Below, piece by piece: positions 2,677-46,919 of a stretch of DNA of 64,000 nt (its first letter is position 1; the number at the start of each line of letters is the position of its first letter). The translations under genes were made by a program, and so were the position numbers. The notes below the pieces were generated by a model, which was not told the origin of the DNA, did not search any database, and saw only the letters and a program-made list of their open reading frames with translations. The DNA comes from Companilactobacillus heilongjiangensis (GTDB lineage Bacteria; Bacillota; Bacilli; Lactobacillales; Lactobacillaceae): positions 620,001-684,000 of the forward strand of contig NZ_CP012559.1 of the NCBI RefSeq assembly GCF_000831645.3, written 5' to 3'.

Positions 2677-3777
2677 CTAGTTGATATATTGCAATTCTTT
2701 ACTTGTATGTGTAAATGGTTCGCAACCATCTTCTGTGATATAAACACAATCTTCAATTCTAACTCCGGCAACGTTTGGAATGTAGATTCCGGGTTCGATT
2801 GAGAAGCACATGCCTGGTTTCAATTCCATGTCATTGCCTTCCATGATTGAAGGGAATTCGTGTTCTGATGCTCCCATACCATGTCCTAGACGGTGAATGA
2901 AGTATTCGCCATAACCAGCTTTAGTGATAATGTCACGTGCAACTTTATCTAGTTCAGCAGCGGTGATACCAGGTTTAGCGGCATCCATAGCAGCGTATTG
3001 AGCTTCAAGGTCGACTTTGTAAATGTCGAGTGACTTAGCATCTGGTTGACCGAAAGCCACGGTTCTTGATGCATCACTGATATAGCCGTTGTGAACTGTT
3101 CCAAGGTCAAAGAGGATTAATTCATCACGTTTGATTGGTGTCTTCTCAGGGCCACCATGTGGATTAGCAGCATTGGCTCCGGCTTGAACGATAGTGTCAA
3201 AACTCATGTGCATGACACCTTTTTTCATCATAGCGTATTCGATTTCGGCTACGACTTCTTGTTCCGTACGGCCTTCTTTAATTGCCTTGAAAGCAACTGA
3301 GAAAGCGTAGTCAGCTTCATCACCAGCAGCTTTTAATTCAGCAATTTCTTCTGGAGTTTTGATAAGCTTGGCATTTTCCATGTAACGTGAAAGGTTAACT
3401 GGGAATTTAGCGTCAGGGAATTGTTGTCTCAAAGCTTCAAGCTTTTGAACAGACATGTTATCCTTTTCGATACCCCAGTTGACAGGTGAACCAGCAACGT
3501 CTTTGATATGACCAGCCATCAAAGCAAATGGATCTTCATGATCGAGATAACCAAAGACATCTTTATCCCAGCCAGCATCCTTAGCAGCTTCAACTTCAAG
3601 CTGTGGTGCGAACATAAATGGGTCTTTGTCTGGGAAAACGAGTAGTGCAAGAATACGTTCTACTGGGTCGCTGTAAAAACCAGTAAAATAGTTGATATCT
3701 TCGGGGCTTGAAATATATGCAGCATCAAGTCCGTTTTGTGCTAAATACTCTTGTAGTGCGATTAATTGTTTCTTCAT
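2677..3777 (-). CDS. pepQ: Xaa-Pro dipeptidase (prolidase), M24 family
   Basis: Cytoplasmic metallopeptidase releasing proline from X-Pro dipeptides. It is 366 aa, the usual PepQ size. The N-terminal creatinase-like domain (about 1–130) is followed by the pita-bread domain with metal ligands in ILFDLGTVHNGYISDASRTV, HRLGHGMGASEHEFP, SIEPGIYIP and GVRIED. AAAGGAG lies 8 nt before the ATG. It is divergent from ccpA, and a cre-like site lies in the shared 172-bp region; in several lactic acid bacteria pepQ and ccpA are divergent and catabolite-controlled, so CcpA control is likely. The 3' end abuts cloverleaf copy 3. Confidence 0.95.
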   Translation of the reverse strand: MKKQLIALQEYLAQNGLDAAYISSPEDINYFTGFYSDPVERILALLVFPDKDPFMFAPQLEVEAAKDAGWDKDVFGYLDHEDPFALMAGHIKDVAGSPVNWGIEKDNMSVQKLEALRQQFPDAKFPVNLSRYMENAKLIKTPEEIAELKAAGDEADYAFSVAFKAIKEGRTEQEVVAEIEYAMMKKGVMHMSFDTIVQAGANAANPHGGPEKTPIKRDELILFDLGTVHNGYISDASRTVAFGQPDAKSLDIYKVDLEAQYAAMDAAKPGITAAELDKVARDIITKAGYGEYFIHRLGHGMGASEHEFPSIMEGNDMELKPGMCFSIEPGIYIPNVAGVRIEDCVYITEDGCEPFTHTSKELQYIN

Positions 3778-40196: not shown

Positions 40197-41984
40197 ATGA
40201 ATTCATATCCAAAGATTGGTATCAGACCAACGATTGATGGTCGTCAAGGTGGAGTTAGAGAATCTTTAGAAGAAAAAACAATGGATATGGCTGAAGCAGC
40301 TAAAGCATTGATTGAAAATACATTAAGATATGCCGATGGTACGCCAGTTCAATGTGTTTTGGCTAGTAGAACAATTGGTGGCCGTGGTGATGCGGGTATT
40401 GTTCAGGAAGAATTTATGGGACATAACATCATTGCAACATTATCGGTTACGCCAAGTTGGTGCTATGGTACCGAAACAATGGATTTGGAACCTAATACAA
40501 TCAAGGCAATCTGGGGATTCAATGGAACGGAAAGACCAGGAGCAGTTTACTTGGCAGCTGCCATGAGTGGATATGCTCAAAAAGGTTATCCAGCATTTAA
40601 GATATATGGACATGATGTCCAAGACTTGGATGACAATTCTATTCCTGAAGATGTCAAAGAGAAAATTCTTACTTTTGCTAAAGGCGCCATTGCTATTGGT
40701 CAGATGAAAGGCAAATCATATGTGAATATTGGTGCTTCTTCAATGGGAATCGCTGGTTCACAGGTGGATAGTAATTTCTTTAAAGATTATCTCGGTATGC
40801 CGGTTGAATTTGTCGATATGACCGAAATTCTTCGTCGGATAACTTTAGGTATCTATGATCCTGAAGAATATGAAACAGCTCTTAGATGGATCAAAGACAA
40901 TTGTCGTGAAGGCTTAGATATTAACAAGGGCAAAGATTTTCCAGAAGTCATTACCAAATCAAAAGTAGTACCAGCTGACAAGGATTGGGAGTTTATTGCT
41001 AAACAAGCAATTATTATTCGAGATATTTTATTCGGAAATAAAAGATTAGCTGATATTGGCTGGGAAGAAGAATCCCACGGTCATAATGCCATAGCTGGTG
41101 GATTCCAAGGTCAACGTCAGTGGACAGATTGGTTGCCAAATGGAGATTTCACTGAAGCAATTATGGCTTCAACTTTTGATTGGAACGGTACCCGTCCAGT
41201 AACAGCTTTTGCCACGGAGAATGACACTTTAAACGGTGTATCGATGCTTTTAGGAACACTTTTAACCAATAAAGCTCCAATTTTCTCAGACGTTAGAACT
41301 TACTGGAGTCCAGAAGCTGTCGAGAGAGTTACCGGCAAGAAACCAACTGGAAAAGCCAAGAATGGTTTTCTACATTTAATTAATTCGGGCGCTTCAGCGT
41401 TGGATGGAACAGCAGCTGCTAGGGATGAACAAGGTAACAGAAGTATGAAAGAATTTTGGAATATGACCCAAGCGGATCAAGAAGCTTGTTTGGCTGAAAC
41501 TGACTGGTGTCGAGCAAATTATGAGTATTTCCGTGGCGGTGGTTTTTCATCGCATTTCAAGACAGCAGCAGAGTTACCAGTAACATTGATCAGAATGAAC
41601 TTGGTTCGTGGCGTTGGGCCATCTTTACAAATTGCGGAAGGTTACACGGTTGTTTTGGATGATGATGTTCACAAAATTTTAGATGAACGAACAGACAGAA
41701 CTTGGCCAACAACTTGGTTTGCACCAAATTTAGGTATGGCAGGATTTGAAACAACTTATGATGTTATGAATCATTGGGGTTCTAATCACTGTGCGTTTGT
41801 TCAAGGACATATCGGTGCAGATTTGATAACAATGGCAAGCATGTTGAGAATCCCAGTTGTTTTACATAATGTTCCAAGTGAAAAGATTTTCCGACCAAGT
41901 ATGTTTGATGGCTTTGGAACAAAGAATTTAGAGGCTGCCGATTTTGAAGCATGTGAAAAATTAGGACCATTTTACAAAAACTAG
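40197..41984 (+). CDS. fucI: L-fucose isomerase
   Basis: 595 aa, the normal FucI length. N-terminal YPKIGIRPTIDGRQGGVRESLE and the metal/active-site segments VTPSWCYGTETMD, IWGFNGTERPGAVYLAAA, GVSMLLGTLLTNKAPIFSDVRTYWSPE and HWGSNHCAFVQGHIGADLITMASMLRIP match the family. Converts L-fucose to L-fuculose using Mn2+. It is second in the fucK–fucI–fucA run. The enzyme also accepts D-arabinose in other organisms. Confidence 0.94.
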   Translation: MNSYPKIGIRPTIDGRQGGVRESLEEKTMDMAEAAKALIENTLRYADGTPVQCVLASRTIGGRGDAGIVQEEFMGHNIIATLSVTPSWCYGTETMDLEPNTIKAIWGFNGTERPGAVYLAAAMSGYAQKGYPAFKIYGHDVQDLDDNSIPEDVKEKILTFAKGAIAIGQMKGKSYVNIGASSMGIAGSQVDSNFFKDYLGMPVEFVDMTEILRRITLGIYDPEEYETALRWIKDNCREGLDINKGKDFPEVITKSKVVPADKDWEFIAKQAIIIRDILFGNKRLADIGWEEESHGHNAIAGGFQGQRQWTDWLPNGDFTEAIMASTFDWNGTRPVTAFATENDTLNGVSMLLGTLLTNKAPIFSDVRTYWSPEAVERVTGKKPTGKAKNGFLHLINSGASALDGTAAARDEQGNRSMKEFWNMTQADQEACLAETDWCRANYEYFRGGGFSSHFKTAAELPVTLIRMNLVRGVGPSLQIAEGYTVVLDDDVHKILDERTDRTWPTTWFAPNLGMAGFETTYDVMNHWGSNHCAFVQGHIGADLITMASMLRIPVVLHNVPSEKIFRPSMFDGFGTKNLEAADFEACEKLGPFYKN

Positions 41985-42003
41985 TTAGTGAGGAATGACA
42001 ACA

Positions 42004-42648
42004 ATGTTAATGGAAAAGGAACGCGAGCAATTAATTGAGTACGGCAAAAAATTAGTTGAAACTGAGTTAACTAAAGGTACTGGTGGAAACCTAAGTATCT
42101 ACGATCGTAAAAATGGTCAAATTGCGATTACACCTTCAGGAATAGATTTCAATAAGATAAAAAAATCGGACATTGTGATTTTAGATATTGATGGAAATGT
42201 TATCGATGGTGACACAGTTCCTTCCAGTGAATGGCAGATGCATTTGAAAGAATATCAAGAACGAACCGATATGGATGCAATTATTCATGCTCATACAACA
42301 TATGCCACAGTTCTATCAGTTTTACATTCACCATTGCCTGCATCGCACTATATGATTGCCGTTGCTGGTAAAGATGTGCGAGTTGCAGAATACGCAACAT
42401 ATGGCAGTAAAGAGTTAGCGGATAATTCATTTGAAGCAATGAAAGATCGTAAAGCTGTGATCCTAGCTAATCATGGATTGTTAGCAGGTTCTTATAATAT
42501 TGCCAATGCTTTTAACGTTATTGAGGAAATTGAATATTGTGCAAAGATTTATTGCATTGCCAGAAGTATTGGTACACCAGTTGTTCTTCCTGATGAAGAA
42601 ATGGAATTAATGGCTAAGAAGTTTGAGGATTACGGCCAAGTTAAATAG
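42004..42648 (+). CDS. fucA: L-fuculose-1-phosphate aldolase (class II)
   Basis: 214 aa. Class II aldolase/adducin fold: TKGTGGNLSIYDRKNGQIAITPSGIDF (phosphate loop), PSSEWQMHLKEYQERTDMDAIIHAHTTYATVLS (catalytic Glu, then two zinc His in HAH) and ILANHGLLAGS (third zinc His). Splits fuculose-1-phosphate into lactaldehyde and DHAP. ATG 42004 has GAGG at a suitable distance; ATG 41995 is too close to it. Its downstream region is the composite repeat with IS110. Confidence 0.9.
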   Translation: MLMEKEREQLIEYGKKLVETELTKGTGGNLSIYDRKNGQIAITPSGIDFNKIKKSDIVILDIDGNVIDGDTVPSSEWQMHLKEYQERTDMDAIIHAHTTYATVLSVLHSPLPASHYMIAVAGKDVRVAEYATYGSKELADNSFEAMKDRKAVILANHGLLAGSYNIANAFNVIEEIEYCAKIYCIARSIGTPVVLPDEEMELMAKKFEDYGQVK

Positions 42649-42946
42649 TCGTTTTAAATAACTTGAAGGGGGTTGTTGCTAGACGACTTTTAATAAAGCA
42701 GGATTTATAAGGGATATTCATTAAATTAGATAGAAAATACGCATGGTGAGAGTTAAATATGCCGTCTCCAGAGCTGGAAAATATTCACAAGCTGTGCGGA
42801 CCGGCCCGAGCCAAAATGCGGTCTCGAACCTCGGTTCCTACGATTAGTCAAGTGAGAATCAGGAAAATGAGAGTATTCTAAACAGTACTTCATAACTTAT
42901 GACTTTAAAATTATGAAGGTAAGAGTTAGTATTTGGAATAGAGATA

Positions 42947-44164
42947 CTAGAGTGTCTCTATGGACCTTGAGTCCGTATATGCATAAGCATATTTAGTCTT
43001 GTTTCTAATCATGGAGAACAGACATTTCAGTGTCTTGTTCATGCAAGCCACTGTGGCAACCTTGTCCCTTTTAGGGACGGGTTGCCTTTTTAGTTTGTAG
43101 TAATAGTCCACGATGTGATTAGGTGCAGCTGCTTGTTGCTTTATCATATTTCTGACAGTGAGGAATAGAATCTCTCTTGCTTTGGGATTTCCACGTTTAT
43201 TTATGTGATCTTTTCTGAGATACTGACCAGATTGGTACCTAATAAGGTCAATCCCAACGTAAGCATTCAATTGATTAGAAGTATCAAATCTGGCGAAATC
43301 TCCGATTTCACCCAGTAACATGGCAGCTGTTAATTCACCAATGCCTGGCATTGAAGCAATAATTTCAAATTCGGGTAATGTTTTTCCGAGTTGAATCATT
43401 TGTTTTCTAAGTTTTCTTTTTTCAATAGTGAGGTCTTTTAATTTACGTGCATAATATTTAACTTCTTGCACTTGAACATTATCTACACGTACTGCTGGAG
43501 AGCTATTCTTAGCAAAGACTATTAACTTTTCAGCATACTCCAGTGCTTTATCACTGGAGATTTTTTTATCGGTCTTACTCATCAAAATATTCTTTAATTT
43601 TGTCCTAGAAATACCAGACACTAAATCAGGATGCGGAAAAAGACTAACCAAATTTAAAGATAGAATAGATGTCTTATTAGTAAACAGTTGTTCCATTTCT
43701 GGAAACGTCTGTTGTAACTCGTTATGTAATTCAACTTTATTGAATTTACGAGAGTCTTCGACTCTCTCGTAAAATCTACACCATTCTCTAAGATCTAGAT
43801 ATTTAGGATTTTGAAATGCCATCAACCGATAACTATTATCATAGGCGCTAAGAGCTATCTTATGCGCATCTTTATTATCGGTTTTAACACGACGCAAATT
43901 CTCTGTCTTGAGGTGTAATTCAAGAGGATTTAACAAAGCATAGGGTATCTTATTATCCCTGCAAAATCTTTCTATGGGGCGAGAGTATATACCCGTAGCC
44001 TCAAAATAAAAAGTTGGATTATTAGCACGTTTAACGGTTTCGCTTAGTTTGGCGAAACCTAGTTTATTATGTTCAAAATCAAATTCTTTCACGCAGTTAC
44101 CATCGCTGTAATGCACACAATAACTGTGTCCTTTGGACACATCTAAAGCAATTATATCTGACAT
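42947..44164 (-). CDS. IS110-family DEDD recombinase (transposase)
   Basis: 405 aa. N-terminal RuvC-like DEDD domain: IALDVSKGHS (Asp8), FYFEATGIYS (Glu55), VKTDNKDAHKIA (Asp96, Asp99). Coiled-coil linker around KDLTIEKRKLRKQMIQLGKTL. C-terminal Transposase_20 domain: SMPGIGELTAAMLLGEIGDFARFDTSNQLNAYVGIDL. ATG 44164 has GAAAGGAAA upstream; reading further upstream would enter the bridge RNA. The frame is intact, so the enzyme may be active. IS110 recombinases act with a bridge RNA to pair donor and target DNA. Confidence 0.92.
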   Translation of the reverse strand: MSDIIALDVSKGHSYCVHYSDGNCVKEFDFEHNKLGFAKLSETVKRANNPTFYFEATGIYSRPIERFCRDNKIPYALLNPLELHLKTENLRRVKTDNKDAHKIALSAYDNSYRLMAFQNPKYLDLREWCRFYERVEDSRKFNKVELHNELQQTFPEMEQLFTNKTSILSLNLVSLFPHPDLVSGISRTKLKNILMSKTDKKISSDKALEYAEKLIVFAKNSSPAVRVDNVQVQEVKYYARKLKDLTIEKRKLRKQMIQLGKTLPEFEIIASMPGIGELTAAMLLGEIGDFARFDTSNQLNAYVGIDLIRYQSGQYLRKDHINKRGNPKAREILFLTVRNMIKQQAAAPNHIVDYYYKLKRQPVPKRDKVATVACMNKTLKCLFSMIRNKTKYAYAYTDSRSIETL

Positions 44165-44199
44165 ATTTTTCCTTTCTAAAGCTATCCGTATCAACATTT

Positions 44200-44330
44200 C
44201 GAATCTCATTTCCTAAACACGAACTCGAAGTCCCACAACCTAAAACCTGATTAAAGAAATGAAGATAACGGAGATCATTTTTTAATACGGACTCGAAGTC
44301 CCGAGGTTCATGCACGATCTTAGCTTTGTC
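44200..44330 (-). ncRNA. Candidate bridge RNA of the IS110 element
   Basis: Minus-strand leader with two loops, each with an apical hairpin built on GGGACUUCGAG. Loop 1 is closed by agatc/gatct (44316–44320 with 44272–44276). It contains gaacctcgg (44301–44309), identical to the target left of the TT core, and uuaaaa (44280–44285), able to pair with ttttga on the right with one G·U. Loop 2 is closed by tcatttc/gaaatga. It contains uuagguugu (44235–44243), identical to the IS right end 44387–44395, and uaggaa (44210–44215), complementary to ttccta at the left end 42835–42840. Ends are approximate. Confidence 0.85.
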
Positions 44331-44640
44331 TCCAGTGTACAAAAAAAGTTCTAAGAGAAGAAATTGATCTTCCCTCAGAACTAATCTTAGGTTGTTTTGA
44401 AGCCTTGACACAGTCCGTCAAGGCTCCAAACACGCCCGGTGGTATAAGAACGGGATAAATCTCCCATTCTTATACCACTACCACGGCACACAAATATTTC
44501 CCAGCTCTTCCGACTAATTAATCGTTATTAGTTGAAGGTAAAAGTACTTGATCAATTTTGGACTATGAAATGTTTGTAATAGGTTATCAGCTATCATCAC
44601 GCGTAAAAAAAATATATTTTATGAACAAGGAGAGGGAAAA

Positions 44641-45858
44641 ATGCAAAGTAGTTTGGATAGAAAAAATGTAGAAACATCTAAGAAAATAACCCTAGGTATT
44701 TTATCTATTTCGTTTTTAATGTCAGTTAGTAACGCTATATCAGGTACCATTCCATTAATGCAGAAGTATTTTTCAAATGTTTCAAGTTCTAATATTGAGT
44801 TATTGGTTGTTATCCCCACCGGTGGTGTACTGCTAGGTACAGTAATTAGTGGTGCTATCGGTAATGTTATTGGTAAAAAGTATACAGTTCTATTAGGTTT
44901 GACCATTGCTCTGATAACCGGGGTAATACCGGCATTTTGGGCCAATTATTTCACAATTTTATTATCTCGAGCAATGTTCGGGGTAGGTTGTGGTATCTTC
45001 ACTCCATTGAGTGTTTCATATATCACCGATACTTTTTCTAAAGAGAAGTGTCACAAGCTGTTAGGCTATCGTAATGCTATTGGTGCCATCGGTGACTCGA
45101 TAATGTTATTCATTGCGGGTTTCTTGATCAAGATTAGTTGGAATACAACATATTTAGTATTTTTCTTCCTATTGATTCCTATTATTTTAATCATGTTTTT
45201 TGTTCCCAAGGAATTGGATAACTTTGAGGCCATCACTGATGAAAATGGTGAGACAGAAGTTGTTGAAAAGACATCAAATGTAAAGCCATCGACAAACCTA
45301 AAAGTTATTAAATTAGCTGCAATATTCTTATTCATGTGCATGTTCTATAGTGCTATTTCATTGAAGTTTGCGAACTACGTGGTAGATAACAAAATTGGTA
45401 CAGCTGCAACAGCAACTTATATCTTTGGTTTCTTAACACTATGCTCAATTTTCTCAGGATTACTTTTTGACAAGATTTCTAAGATCTTTGGTAAGTGGAC
45501 AGTTGTTTTATTTGAAGCAATTACAGCCGTAGCTATGGTTGCCTTAACACTTTCAACTTCAATCCCAGTATTGCTTGTTTTAATTCTTATCTGTGGATTC
45601 AGTAATGGTATTATCAACCCAGCTTTAACAGCTAGAATGGTTGATTATTCTCCAGAAAATTCAATGAATTTAACAACATCAATTATTATTATCGGAATCA
45701 ACATTGGTTTCTTAACTGCACCATATGCGTTCCAATTGATTTCATCAGTCTTTGGAAATGCAACTCCACAGTTTATTATTCTAGTTTCAGGTTTGTTCTA
45801 TATCGCCCTAGCTCTTTACGATGTATACACAGTTAAAAGAGATCGTCTTACATTATAA
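44641..45858 (+). CDS. MFS permease, AlfH-like (fucosyl-GlcNAc-Asn or fucosyl-sugar uptake)
   Basis: 405 aa with twelve predicted membrane helices. N-terminal half contains the loop GNVIGKKYTVLLG and RAMFGVGCGIFTPLSVSYI; a charged cytoplasmic loop (DNFEAITDENGETEVVEKTSN, about 197–217) separates the halves. Position directly before a GH29 fucosidase mirrors alfHC of the alf-2 cluster of Lactobacillus casei BL23, where AlfH imports fucosyl-alpha-1,6-GlcNAc-Asn. Substrate assignment is by context. AAGGAGAGG precedes the ATG. It begins 36 bp after the composite repeat that holds IS110. Confidence 0.78.
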   Translation: MQSSLDRKNVETSKKITLGILSISFLMSVSNAISGTIPLMQKYFSNVSSSNIELLVVIPTGGVLLGTVISGAIGNVIGKKYTVLLGLTIALITGVIPAFWANYFTILLSRAMFGVGCGIFTPLSVSYITDTFSKEKCHKLLGYRNAIGAIGDSIMLFIAGFLIKISWNTTYLVFFFLLIPIILIMFFVPKELDNFEAITDENGETEVVEKTSNVKPSTNLKVIKLAAIFLFMCMFYSAISLKFANYVVDNKIGTAATATYIFGFLTLCSIFSGLLFDKISKIFGKWTVVLFEAITAVAMVALTLSTSIPVLLVLILICGFSNGIINPALTARMVDYSPENSMNLTTSIIIIGINIGFLTAPYAFQLISSVFGNATPQFIILVSGLFYIALALYDVYTVKRDRLTL

Positions 45859-45899
45859 AATTACGAATTATTACTAAGATTAGTTGGAGGATGTAAATA

Positions 45900-46919
45900 A
45901 TGAATGAAAATATGAAATGGTTTAAAGAAGCAAAATACGGCATGATGATTCATTGGGGATTATATTCATTACTAGCAGGTGAGTATGATGGCAAGTCATC
46001 AAGTAATTATGCTGAATGGATTCAATCAAAACTACAGATTCCAAATGCTGAATATGAGAAATTGACCGATGCTTTTAATCCCATTTATTTCGACGCTGAT
46101 AAGATTGTTAATTTGGCTAAAGATGTTGGTATGAAATATTTAGTTGTTACAACAAAGCATCATGATGGTTTTGCAATGTATAAATCAGAAGTTGATAAAT
46201 ATAATATTTTTGATTCAACACCATTCCATCGTGACATTATTAAGGAATTATCCGACGCTTGTAAAAAAGCTGGATTGAAGTTTGGCATTTATTATTCGCA
46301 AGATCTTGATTGGCACGACTTTAACGGTGGTGGGTATTTATCAAATGATATTGAAACTGCCGGTACAACTTGGGATAACAGTTGGGACTTTACTGGTGAA
46401 AAAGACTATAACATCTGCTTTGAAAATAAAATCATGCCTCAAATCGAAGAGTTGATGACTAACTACGGTGACATTGCAACCGCTTGGTTTGATGTTCCTA
46501 TGACTTTAACTGAAGAACAAAGTAAGAAAATTTACGACACAGTTAAAAAACTTCAACCAGATTGTTTAATTAATTCGCGTTTAGGTAATGGAGAATATGA
46601 TTACGTTTCATTAGGTGATAATGAAATTCCAGATACAACTGAAGTGGAAACAAGCGATGAAAAAGTTGATTACAATGCGGTTGACGGACTAAAGCCTTCG
46701 CCAAATGGACTATACGAAACTGCCGGTACAATGAACGATTCATGGGGCTTTTCATATCATGATCAAAATTGGAAGAAACCGGAAGATATTTACAAGTACA
46801 AGAAGCATTTGAATGATCTAGGTATCAATTACTTACTAAATGTCGGTTTGGATGGATTGGGAAGAATTCCAATGGATTCAATCGATAATTTAAAAGCCGT
46901 AAAGGATATGGAATCATAA
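45900..46919 (+). CDS. Intracellular alpha-L-fucosidase, GH29 (AlfC-like)
   Basis: 339 aa, close to the roughly 344 aa of L. casei AlfC and with no signal peptide. GH29 motifs: KWFKEAKYGMMIHWGLYS near the N-terminus, VTTKHHDGFAMY (about 84–95), FGIYYSQDLDWHD, and the nucleophile region TAWFDVP with Asp198. It is likely to release fucose from alpha-1,6-linked GlcNAc. Located between the permease and a glycosylasparaginase, which supports core-fucosylated N-glycan remnants as substrate. The released fucose could feed the upstream fucI–fucK–fucA genes. GGAGG is seven nt upstream of ATG. Confidence 0.87.
   Translation: MNENMKWFKEAKYGMMIHWGLYSLLAGEYDGKSSSNYAEWIQSKLQIPNAEYEKLTDAFNPIYFDADKIVNLAKDVGMKYLVVTTKHHDGFAMYKSEVDKYNIFDSTPFHRDIIKELSDACKKAGLKFGIYYSQDLDWHDFNGGGYLSNDIETAGTTWDNSWDFTGEKDYNICFENKIMPQIEELMTNYGDIATAWFDVPMTLTEEQSKKIYDTVKKLQPDCLINSRLGNGEYDYVSLGDNEIPDTTEVETSDEKVDYNAVDGLKPSPNGLYETAGTMNDSWGFSYHDQNWKKPEDIYKYKKHLNDLGINYLLNVGLDGLGRIPMDSIDNLKAVKDMES

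Follow-up and report, generated by a model that had tools for sequence, protein, structure and literature searches.

Bridge recombinases are wanted as tools for genome writing, and the detailed work in the reports drawn on here covers IS621 and a few Gram-negative relatives. The main text of PMC11208160 and PMC11208158 describes IS621 as encoding a DEDD recombinase and, in the leader of its gene, an RNA of two loops, the target loop first, each with a longer 5' guide and a shorter 3' guide; the element has a junction promoter and inserts into a repeated palindrome. For IS1111 elements using seekRNAs, such as IS4321, the text of PMC11187229 has the 5' guide pair, in the flank that follows the 3' end of the gene, with the gene-sense strand and reports the guide order of IS1111 members as reversed relative to that of IS110 members. 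A promoter formed in the excised circle is reported for elements of both groups (PMC11208160, PMC11187229). Here we describe a 1.56-kb IS110-family element of Companilactobacillus heilongjiangensis that combines features of these systems. It lies in a stretch of 64,000 nucleotides (nt), positions 620001-684000 of the single-contig 2.79-Mb genome (assembly GCF_000831645.3, contig NZ_CP012559.1), which we call the window and to whose first letter all coordinates refer.

The explanation we favor, with a probability of about 0.93, is a bridge-RNA element of the IS110 family with the following cycle. The element would be excised as a circle whose joined ends create a promoter transcribing the leader RNA. 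The 5' side of loop 1 would base-pair with the left target half GAACCTCGG and both sides of loop 2 with the element's own joined ends, and a DEDD recombinase holding such loops would exchange strands at TT, so that the circle enters a multicopy host repeat where two of its arms meet, with no duplication of the target. We infer, from the comparisons below, that the leader RNA is transcribed and bound, that the circle and its promoter form, that strands are exchanged and that the element is active at present.

Guides, target and donor

The genome carries four full copies of the element and one 75-bp remnant, all five sharing one junction and one orientation within a repeat of ~200 bp that is predicted to fold into several arms, the insertion falling at the junction of two of them. 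All four intact copies lie in a single orientation at GGTCTCGAACCTCG(G/A)-TT, one of them having GAACCTCGA as its left target half. At the remnant, the right junction is unchanged and the left side holds no guide-matched bases beyond GGTCTCGAA. The element was probably active recently. The repeat family, with hundreds of similar sites, would act as a landing field: there are 457 sites within two mismatches of GGTCTCGAACCTCGGTT (reversed control 1), 562 within three mismatches of this 17-mer (reversed control 4), 168 exact GAACCTCGGTT sites (reversed control 2) and 60 exact GAACCTCGATT sites (reversed control 1). Multicopy targets are also found in two relatives, with 20 sites in G078 and 18 in G323 at up to three mismatches (occupied sites included; controls 0).

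Scanned for its longest exact match, the leader gives 9 nt in the flank on the side of the gene's 3' end and 5 nt in the opposite flank. The first-pass annotation had proposed an IS110 leader RNA programmed to a multicopy repeat, with loop 1 equal to the target left of the core and loop 2 equal to the element end, 9/9 bases each, with UAGGAA as exact complement of TTCCTA, and with the same apical hairpin in both loops. These matches are all present in the raw sequence, and a 19-nt direct repeat is common to both loops (44216-44234 and 44284-44302, 89%). The array of landing sites that it expected across the genome is borne out by the exact-site counts above. It had named two findings that would speak against its proposal: copies at unrelated sites, of which this genome has none, and loops that are not conserved in homologs, where we find conserved loops whose guides change together with the target.

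This covariation carries the argument. Homologs came from named genomes (11 loci), eight further regions that were fetched, a genus scan, in which 7 of 36 genomes matched at E up to 1e-30, and a family scan, in which 26 of 397 matched at E up to 1e-80; both scan counts include the window's own genome. Because the element ends CTAATCGTAGGAA and CTAAGATTAGT are strikingly conserved among homologs, the flanks of these could be read directly. Both ends and a leader were recognized at 36 of 54 distinct loci, from which L054, L057 and L062 had been left out as repeats of others; the remaining 18 had no recognized end or leader (L045, L050, L052, L053, L056, L071, L073, L074, L076-L083, L088 and L091). 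L046 and L058 never entered the guide test, nor did L047, L059 and L060, repeat copies already in the set.

With one representative for each of the 20 distinct guides among the 36 insertions, the summed longest run between the loop 1 5' guide and its own flank, wobble allowed, was 138, compared with a permuted mean of 95.2 (standard deviation 5.3, maximum 119), and 0/20000 permutations reached it. The guide 6-mer equals its own flank at 6/6 positions (wobble allowed) in 25 of 36 insertions, and a full own-flank match is seen for 14 of 17 distinct guide 6-mers versus 7.7% of foreign pairs. In a neighboring species (G009), for example, the guide is GGGCCUCGG and the insertions are at GGGCCTCGG and GGACCTCGG; other guides are AGCCCC (G352), AGCCUC and AUCCUC (G076) and GAACGG (Planococcus). 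The donor side behaves alike: the loop 2 5' guide and the element's own end scored 165 against 138.7 (standard deviation 5.4) in 24 elements, again with 0/20000 permutations. Two loops that match target and donor and covary with them define a bridge RNA or seekRNA, and at the level of sequence this is what we find for both 5' guides. Guide 6-mers still fit the flanks, wobble allowed, in three decayed copies with stops or deletions in congeners (L049, L051 and L057; genomes G022 and G030).

These data bear on two other explanations. The recombinase itself may recognize the repeat, by sequence or by extruded cloverleaf hairpins, the leader match being a coincidence or a captured copy; all insertions in this genome do fall at one point of a structured repeat, and the attC-using IS1111 members described in the text of PMC11187229 are a precedent for structured targets. 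However, homologs with a conserved protein insert in differing sequences, each flank following its own guide, and the donor loop covaries as well, so that we reject recognition of structure alone and rate recognition by the protein in general as quite improbable. Insertion may instead be broad, with survival only of copies in harmless intergenic repeats, of which there are many. We find this hardly credible, given one position and one orientation inside a ~200-bp repeat, and it leaves the covariation in other genomes unexplained. The features of the element and its insertion site are collected in Table 1.

Table 1. Features of the element and its insertion site (window coordinates)
Feature	Position	Strand	Support or remark
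IS110-family element without core	42837-44395	-	Four genome copies identical over the 1558 bp compared
Left part of interrupted cloverleaf repeat	42761-42834	+	30 related copies aligned
Left target half GAACCTCGG in host repeat	42826-42834	+	9/9 identical to loop 1 5' guide
TT core, left junction	42835-42836	+	28/30 empty repeats CGG-TTT-GAAG; junction T counts fit TT core
Subterminal inverted repeat, 7 bp, ACTAATC on minus strand	42842-42848	-	CTAATCGTAGGAA end kept in homologs
TTGACT, -35 half of promoter predicted to form only in excised circle	42846-42851	-	In silico joining
Recombinase, probably 405 aa; DEDD RuvC domain and C-terminal Tnp domain	42947-44164	-	Pfam, NCBIfam, fold
Loop 2, donor-binding loop	44202-44252	-	Apical hairpin 100% paired, 25 leaders
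3' donor guide UAGGAA	44210-44215	-	Exact complement of TTCCTA, 42835-42840 (core and element end); conserved in homologs
5' donor guide UUAGGUUGU	44235-44243	-	Identical to element end TTAGGTTGT, 44387-44395, 9/9
Loop 1, target-binding loop, with closing stems	44260-44334	-	Stems 93-99% paired, both-side changes, 25 leaders
Putative 3' target guide UUAAAA	44280-44285	-	5/6 pairs with TTTGAA; covariation gives no support
5' target guide GAACCUCGG	44301-44309	-	Identical to plus-strand target GAACCTCGG, 9/9
5' stem-loop, then seven U; terminator-like	44341-44381	-	Compensatory changes
Subterminal inverted repeat, 7 bp, GATTAGT on minus strand	44380-44386	-	CTAAGATTAGT kept in homologs
TAAGAT, -10 half of predicted junction promoter	44384-44389	-	In silico joining
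TT core, right junction; target right half (TGAAGCC...) next	44396-44397	+	
Right part of interrupted cloverleaf repeat	44398-44516	+	30 related copies aligned
Target sequence of the element, written out			GAACCTCGGTTTGAAGCC
Target stretch taken apart from the repeat's hairpins			GAACCTCGGTTTGAAG

RNA position and guide polarity

A long non-coding region precedes the recombinase gene, and the first-pass annotation had taken the arrangement to be of IS621 type. This did not survive, the polarity of the guides relative to the recombinase gene being reversed. For 19 distinct guides, the flank past the gene's 3' end gave a mean run of 6.95 versus 4.74 when permuted (0/20000), and the flank before the leader 3.95 versus 3.74 (2058/20000), which is no signal. 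The RNA thus precedes its gene, which is the IS110 position, but the 5' guide reads, on the other strand, the flank beyond the gene's 3' end, as in IS1111. No description of an upstream RNA with IS1111 guide order was found in the sections covered here of PMC11208160, PMC11208158 and PMC11187229 (figures and supplements aside), nor any hint of one in literature listings. A few IS1111 members, such as ISMtsp17, have an upstream non-coding region (PMC11187229), their guide order being absent from the sections of that paper covered here.

Alternatively, the guides could be arranged as in IS621, with the 5' guide reading the leader-adjacent flank, and our polarity call could be a strand mistake; the RNA does lie upstream of the gene in both elements. 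Yet when a real IS621 copy, from an E. coli plasmid, is read in the same way, its 5' guide ATCGGGCCTT has the gene-strand sequence of the leader-adjacent flank, ATCAGGCCTT (one G for A), and in the window's clade the signal sits in the opposite flank. The IS621 control gave 10 nt with one wobble versus 8 nt for the opposite flank, and 6 versus 5 with exact matching; this single control is modest evidence on its own, and it agrees with the assignment published in the main text of PMC11208160 and PMC11208158. A strand mistake is very improbable, and we retain the reversed polarity.

With IS621 the element shares all the features given at the outset, its junction promoter being predicted. It differs, besides the polarity, in its core (TT rather than CT), in 5' guides that do not include the core, in protein length (405 versus 326 aa) and in subterminal repeats of 7 bp versus 2-3 bp. 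With IS4321 and IS1111 it shares the flank and strand with which the 5' guide pairs, as well as the presence of subterminal inverted repeats (PMC11187229, main text). In IS4321 of R751, the RNA region is downstream, and an AAAACGGA word in it pairs with the gene strand of the flank on the 3' side of the gene.

This guide order raised IS1111 membership as a candidate. According to the text of PMC11187229, IS1111 elements have subterminal repeats that measure 11-13 bp and are extended by 7 and 3 bp, a downstream non-coding region and proteins of 330-350 aa, whereas here the repeats are 7 bp with 9 and 5 nt outside them (core excluded), the RNA is upstream and the protein is longer. The IS1111 order, with the top-strand guide 5' of the bottom-strand guide, is found for the 5' guide, the 3' guide being without covariation support. 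We reject membership on the two tested features, repeats and RNA position, together with protein length. From the IS110 group, the element has the upstream non-coding region and lacks the guide order in which the 5' guide reads the leader-adjacent flank. Like ISEc21, a seekRNA element of that group, it has its RNA upstream of the gene; unlike it, the guide order is opposite, as reported in the text of PMC11187229 and compared by description only.

The element belongs to a Gram-positive clade, the nearest named member of which is ISSep2 of Staphylococcus, a name taken from a plasmid annotation. ISSep2 has the same ends, TTGACTAATCGTAGGAA and ACATACTAAGATTAGC, and, in the two copies read, the same leader plan of 5' stem-loop plus two loops; it differs in protein (42% identity), guide and target. 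By eye, its 5' guide AGACUCUU fits the flanking sequence after the gene's 3' end (GACTCTT in L096, ACTCTT in L095), so the polarity is likely the same, although this guide did not stand out in an automated scan for the longest run with wobble allowed. L079 and L081, outside the counted set, also have this polarity by eye. Among 1818 plasmid records there was no protein match of at least 60% identity, ISSep2 and distant relatives being present; a scan of viral contigs found no relative, and a phage collection gave one weak DNA match. An IS110 line of Enterococcus faecium, considered for how widely the reversed polarity occurs, was left out, as three of its records share the left neighbor gene and the ends could not be set; the fourth record, L111, was also left out.

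In this layout the RNA sits where one group has it and the guides run in the order of the other, which suggests that the two traits can be separated and bears directly on the origin of the IS110 and IS1111 groups. That the whole Gram-positive clade represents a third architecture, with an upstream RNA, reversed polarity, a specificity guide of ~6 nt and a sliding T-run core, is a tentative proposal that we rate somewhat below even odds. If the core does slide, the exchange point would move by at least one base relative to the guide, and one RNA would give insertions in neighboring registers. The natural guide-target pairs of this clade suggest a targeting rule without experiment.

Leader RNA, junction and recombinase

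The leader begins with the 5' stem-loop and its U run, followed by two internal-loop hairpins with nearly identical tips. RNAalifold, applied to 25 leaders including the window's, predicts 30 pairs, 24 of them with both sides changed. Paired cells amount to 94.3%, compared with 76.2% in shuffled and 34-51% in slid alignments, and the covariation score is 0.591 versus 0.235 in shuffles, reached by 0/500. In the 5' stem-loop, 10 of 11 pairs changed on both sides and 91.2% of cells are paired; recovery of loop 2 was limited to its tip of four pairs, without the closing stem. One Enterococcus phoeniculicola locus (L038) has lost, in the leader upstream of position 3001, the stretch between the repeated loop tips, leaving a single loop, and is likely a dead copy produced by recombination between loops.

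Empty sites were represented by the 30 uninterrupted repeat copies most similar to the window's. Besides the 28 with three T, one has TT and one TTTT, and GAACCTCGG is read in 26/30. The T counts at the junctions, set against these sites, fit no target duplication beyond the core. Since empty repeats read TTT, one T of the TTTTGA to which the first-pass annotation had paired UUAAAA belongs to the element; the right target half is likely TTTGAA, with which UUAAAA pairs at 5/6 positions with one G-A mismatch. Its statement that all four guides are visible and agree on one core holds for both 5' guides and UAGGAA, in so far as they are visible, leaves the right target guide unproven, and needs amending for the core, which lies in the two 3' guides only (UUAAAA and UAGGAA).

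Across the junction, the ends joined in silico read TTGACT-17 bp-TAAGAT, and both hexamers are present in 34/36 elements. The hairpin at 44341-44381, directly after the -10 box, may be the 5' stem-loop of the RNA or a guard against read-in; a terminator-like hairpin directly behind the predicted junction promoter does not yet fit the model. The distance from guide 6-mer to element end is 2 to 6 nt in 35/36 elements (for L043, an alignment gap required manual placement of the guide), and the exchange point seems to slide within the T run. One-base differences in exchange point are seen at the left junctions of L003, L040, L084 and L089, in four genomes.

Several points weigh against a bridge RNA of the kind proposed. 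Concerning the RNA, the isolated 158-nt two-loop segment is not stabler than shuffles (z +0.24), and the 206-nt leader is stabler (z -3.23) in a fold that pairs the element end with loop 2 and differs from the bridge-RNA fold; an Rfam search with 2501 bases gave no match at E up to 1. Concerning the guides, the 3' target guide and the right flank scored 129 versus 124.9 (4985/20000, 24 elements), which gives no support to UUAAAA as right target guide, and at least 5/6 guide bases are found in 35/36 own flanks (16/17 distinct guide 6-mers), yet also in 38.6% of foreign pairs. The guide-to-end distance shifts by one among copies with the same guide in 4/6 multi-copy sets, a one-base crossover slip that a fixed-core model does not predict. 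About 228 of the 562 repeat-like sites have GAACCTCG(G/A)TT, counts that come from different patterns, and all four intact copies would fall in this subset by chance with a probability of ~0.03; this is weakly informative, suggestive and not decisive. Finally, the end motif used to collect homologs was derived from the same clade, the homologs are related and permutation counts do not stand for independent events, and the donor and right-guide tests kept near-identical elements separate.

The recombinase is recognizable by several approaches. The listed 420-aa open reading frame (ORF) matches PF01548 (5e-22) and PF02371 (1.2e-21), both beyond the gathering score, and the NCBIfam model 'IS110 family RNA-guided transposase' with 180.5 bits (cut-off 140). 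Since this ORF begins inside loop 2 and most homologs align from residues 13-18, the protein is probably the 405-aa product. Its AlphaFold model (mean pLDDT 78, pTM 0.68) has as best solved folds the ISCro4 and IS621 recombinases, at E 5.5e-11 to 3.5e-9 in the first 11 rows and with TM-scores of 0.44-0.50 by query length. The EATG, KTDxxDA and RYxSG motifs align with IS621, the N-terminal piece scoring 8.3 bits and ending short of the first D, and across nine aligned proteins including the window's there is no variation at the E, at either D of KTDxxDA or at the S. The two domains, the catalytic residues and site- and orientation-specific insertion without target duplication place the element in the IS110 superfamily. 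An unrooted tree of 26 proteins groups the window's with those of Lactobacillaceae, Enterococcus, Planococcus, Bacillus, Streptococcus and ISSep2, apart from IS621 and on a branch separate from IS4321; given long-branch warnings (IS4321, ISEc45, ISRel25 and others), we use this small tree solely to state that, within the sample, neither IS621 nor IS4321 nests with the window's group. The first catalytic D, within ALDVS in the window, is N in one E. phoeniculicola copy (L044).

The target repeat occurs at 13 sites in the window, from 1316 to 58373. The repeat also spreads where the element is lacking: three congeners show large expansions of it (551 sites in G011, 232 in G023 and 274 in G034), yet no recombinase match at E up to 1e-30. 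In L061, L093 and other relatives, insertions lie, by eye, at the 3' base of hairpins with a T run behind them, sites that resemble intrinsic terminators or short palindromic repeats. In the window, the element sits between an aldolase-like gene and a transporter gene (40197-46919), a region that resembles, by family features of its translations, a cluster for fucose use.
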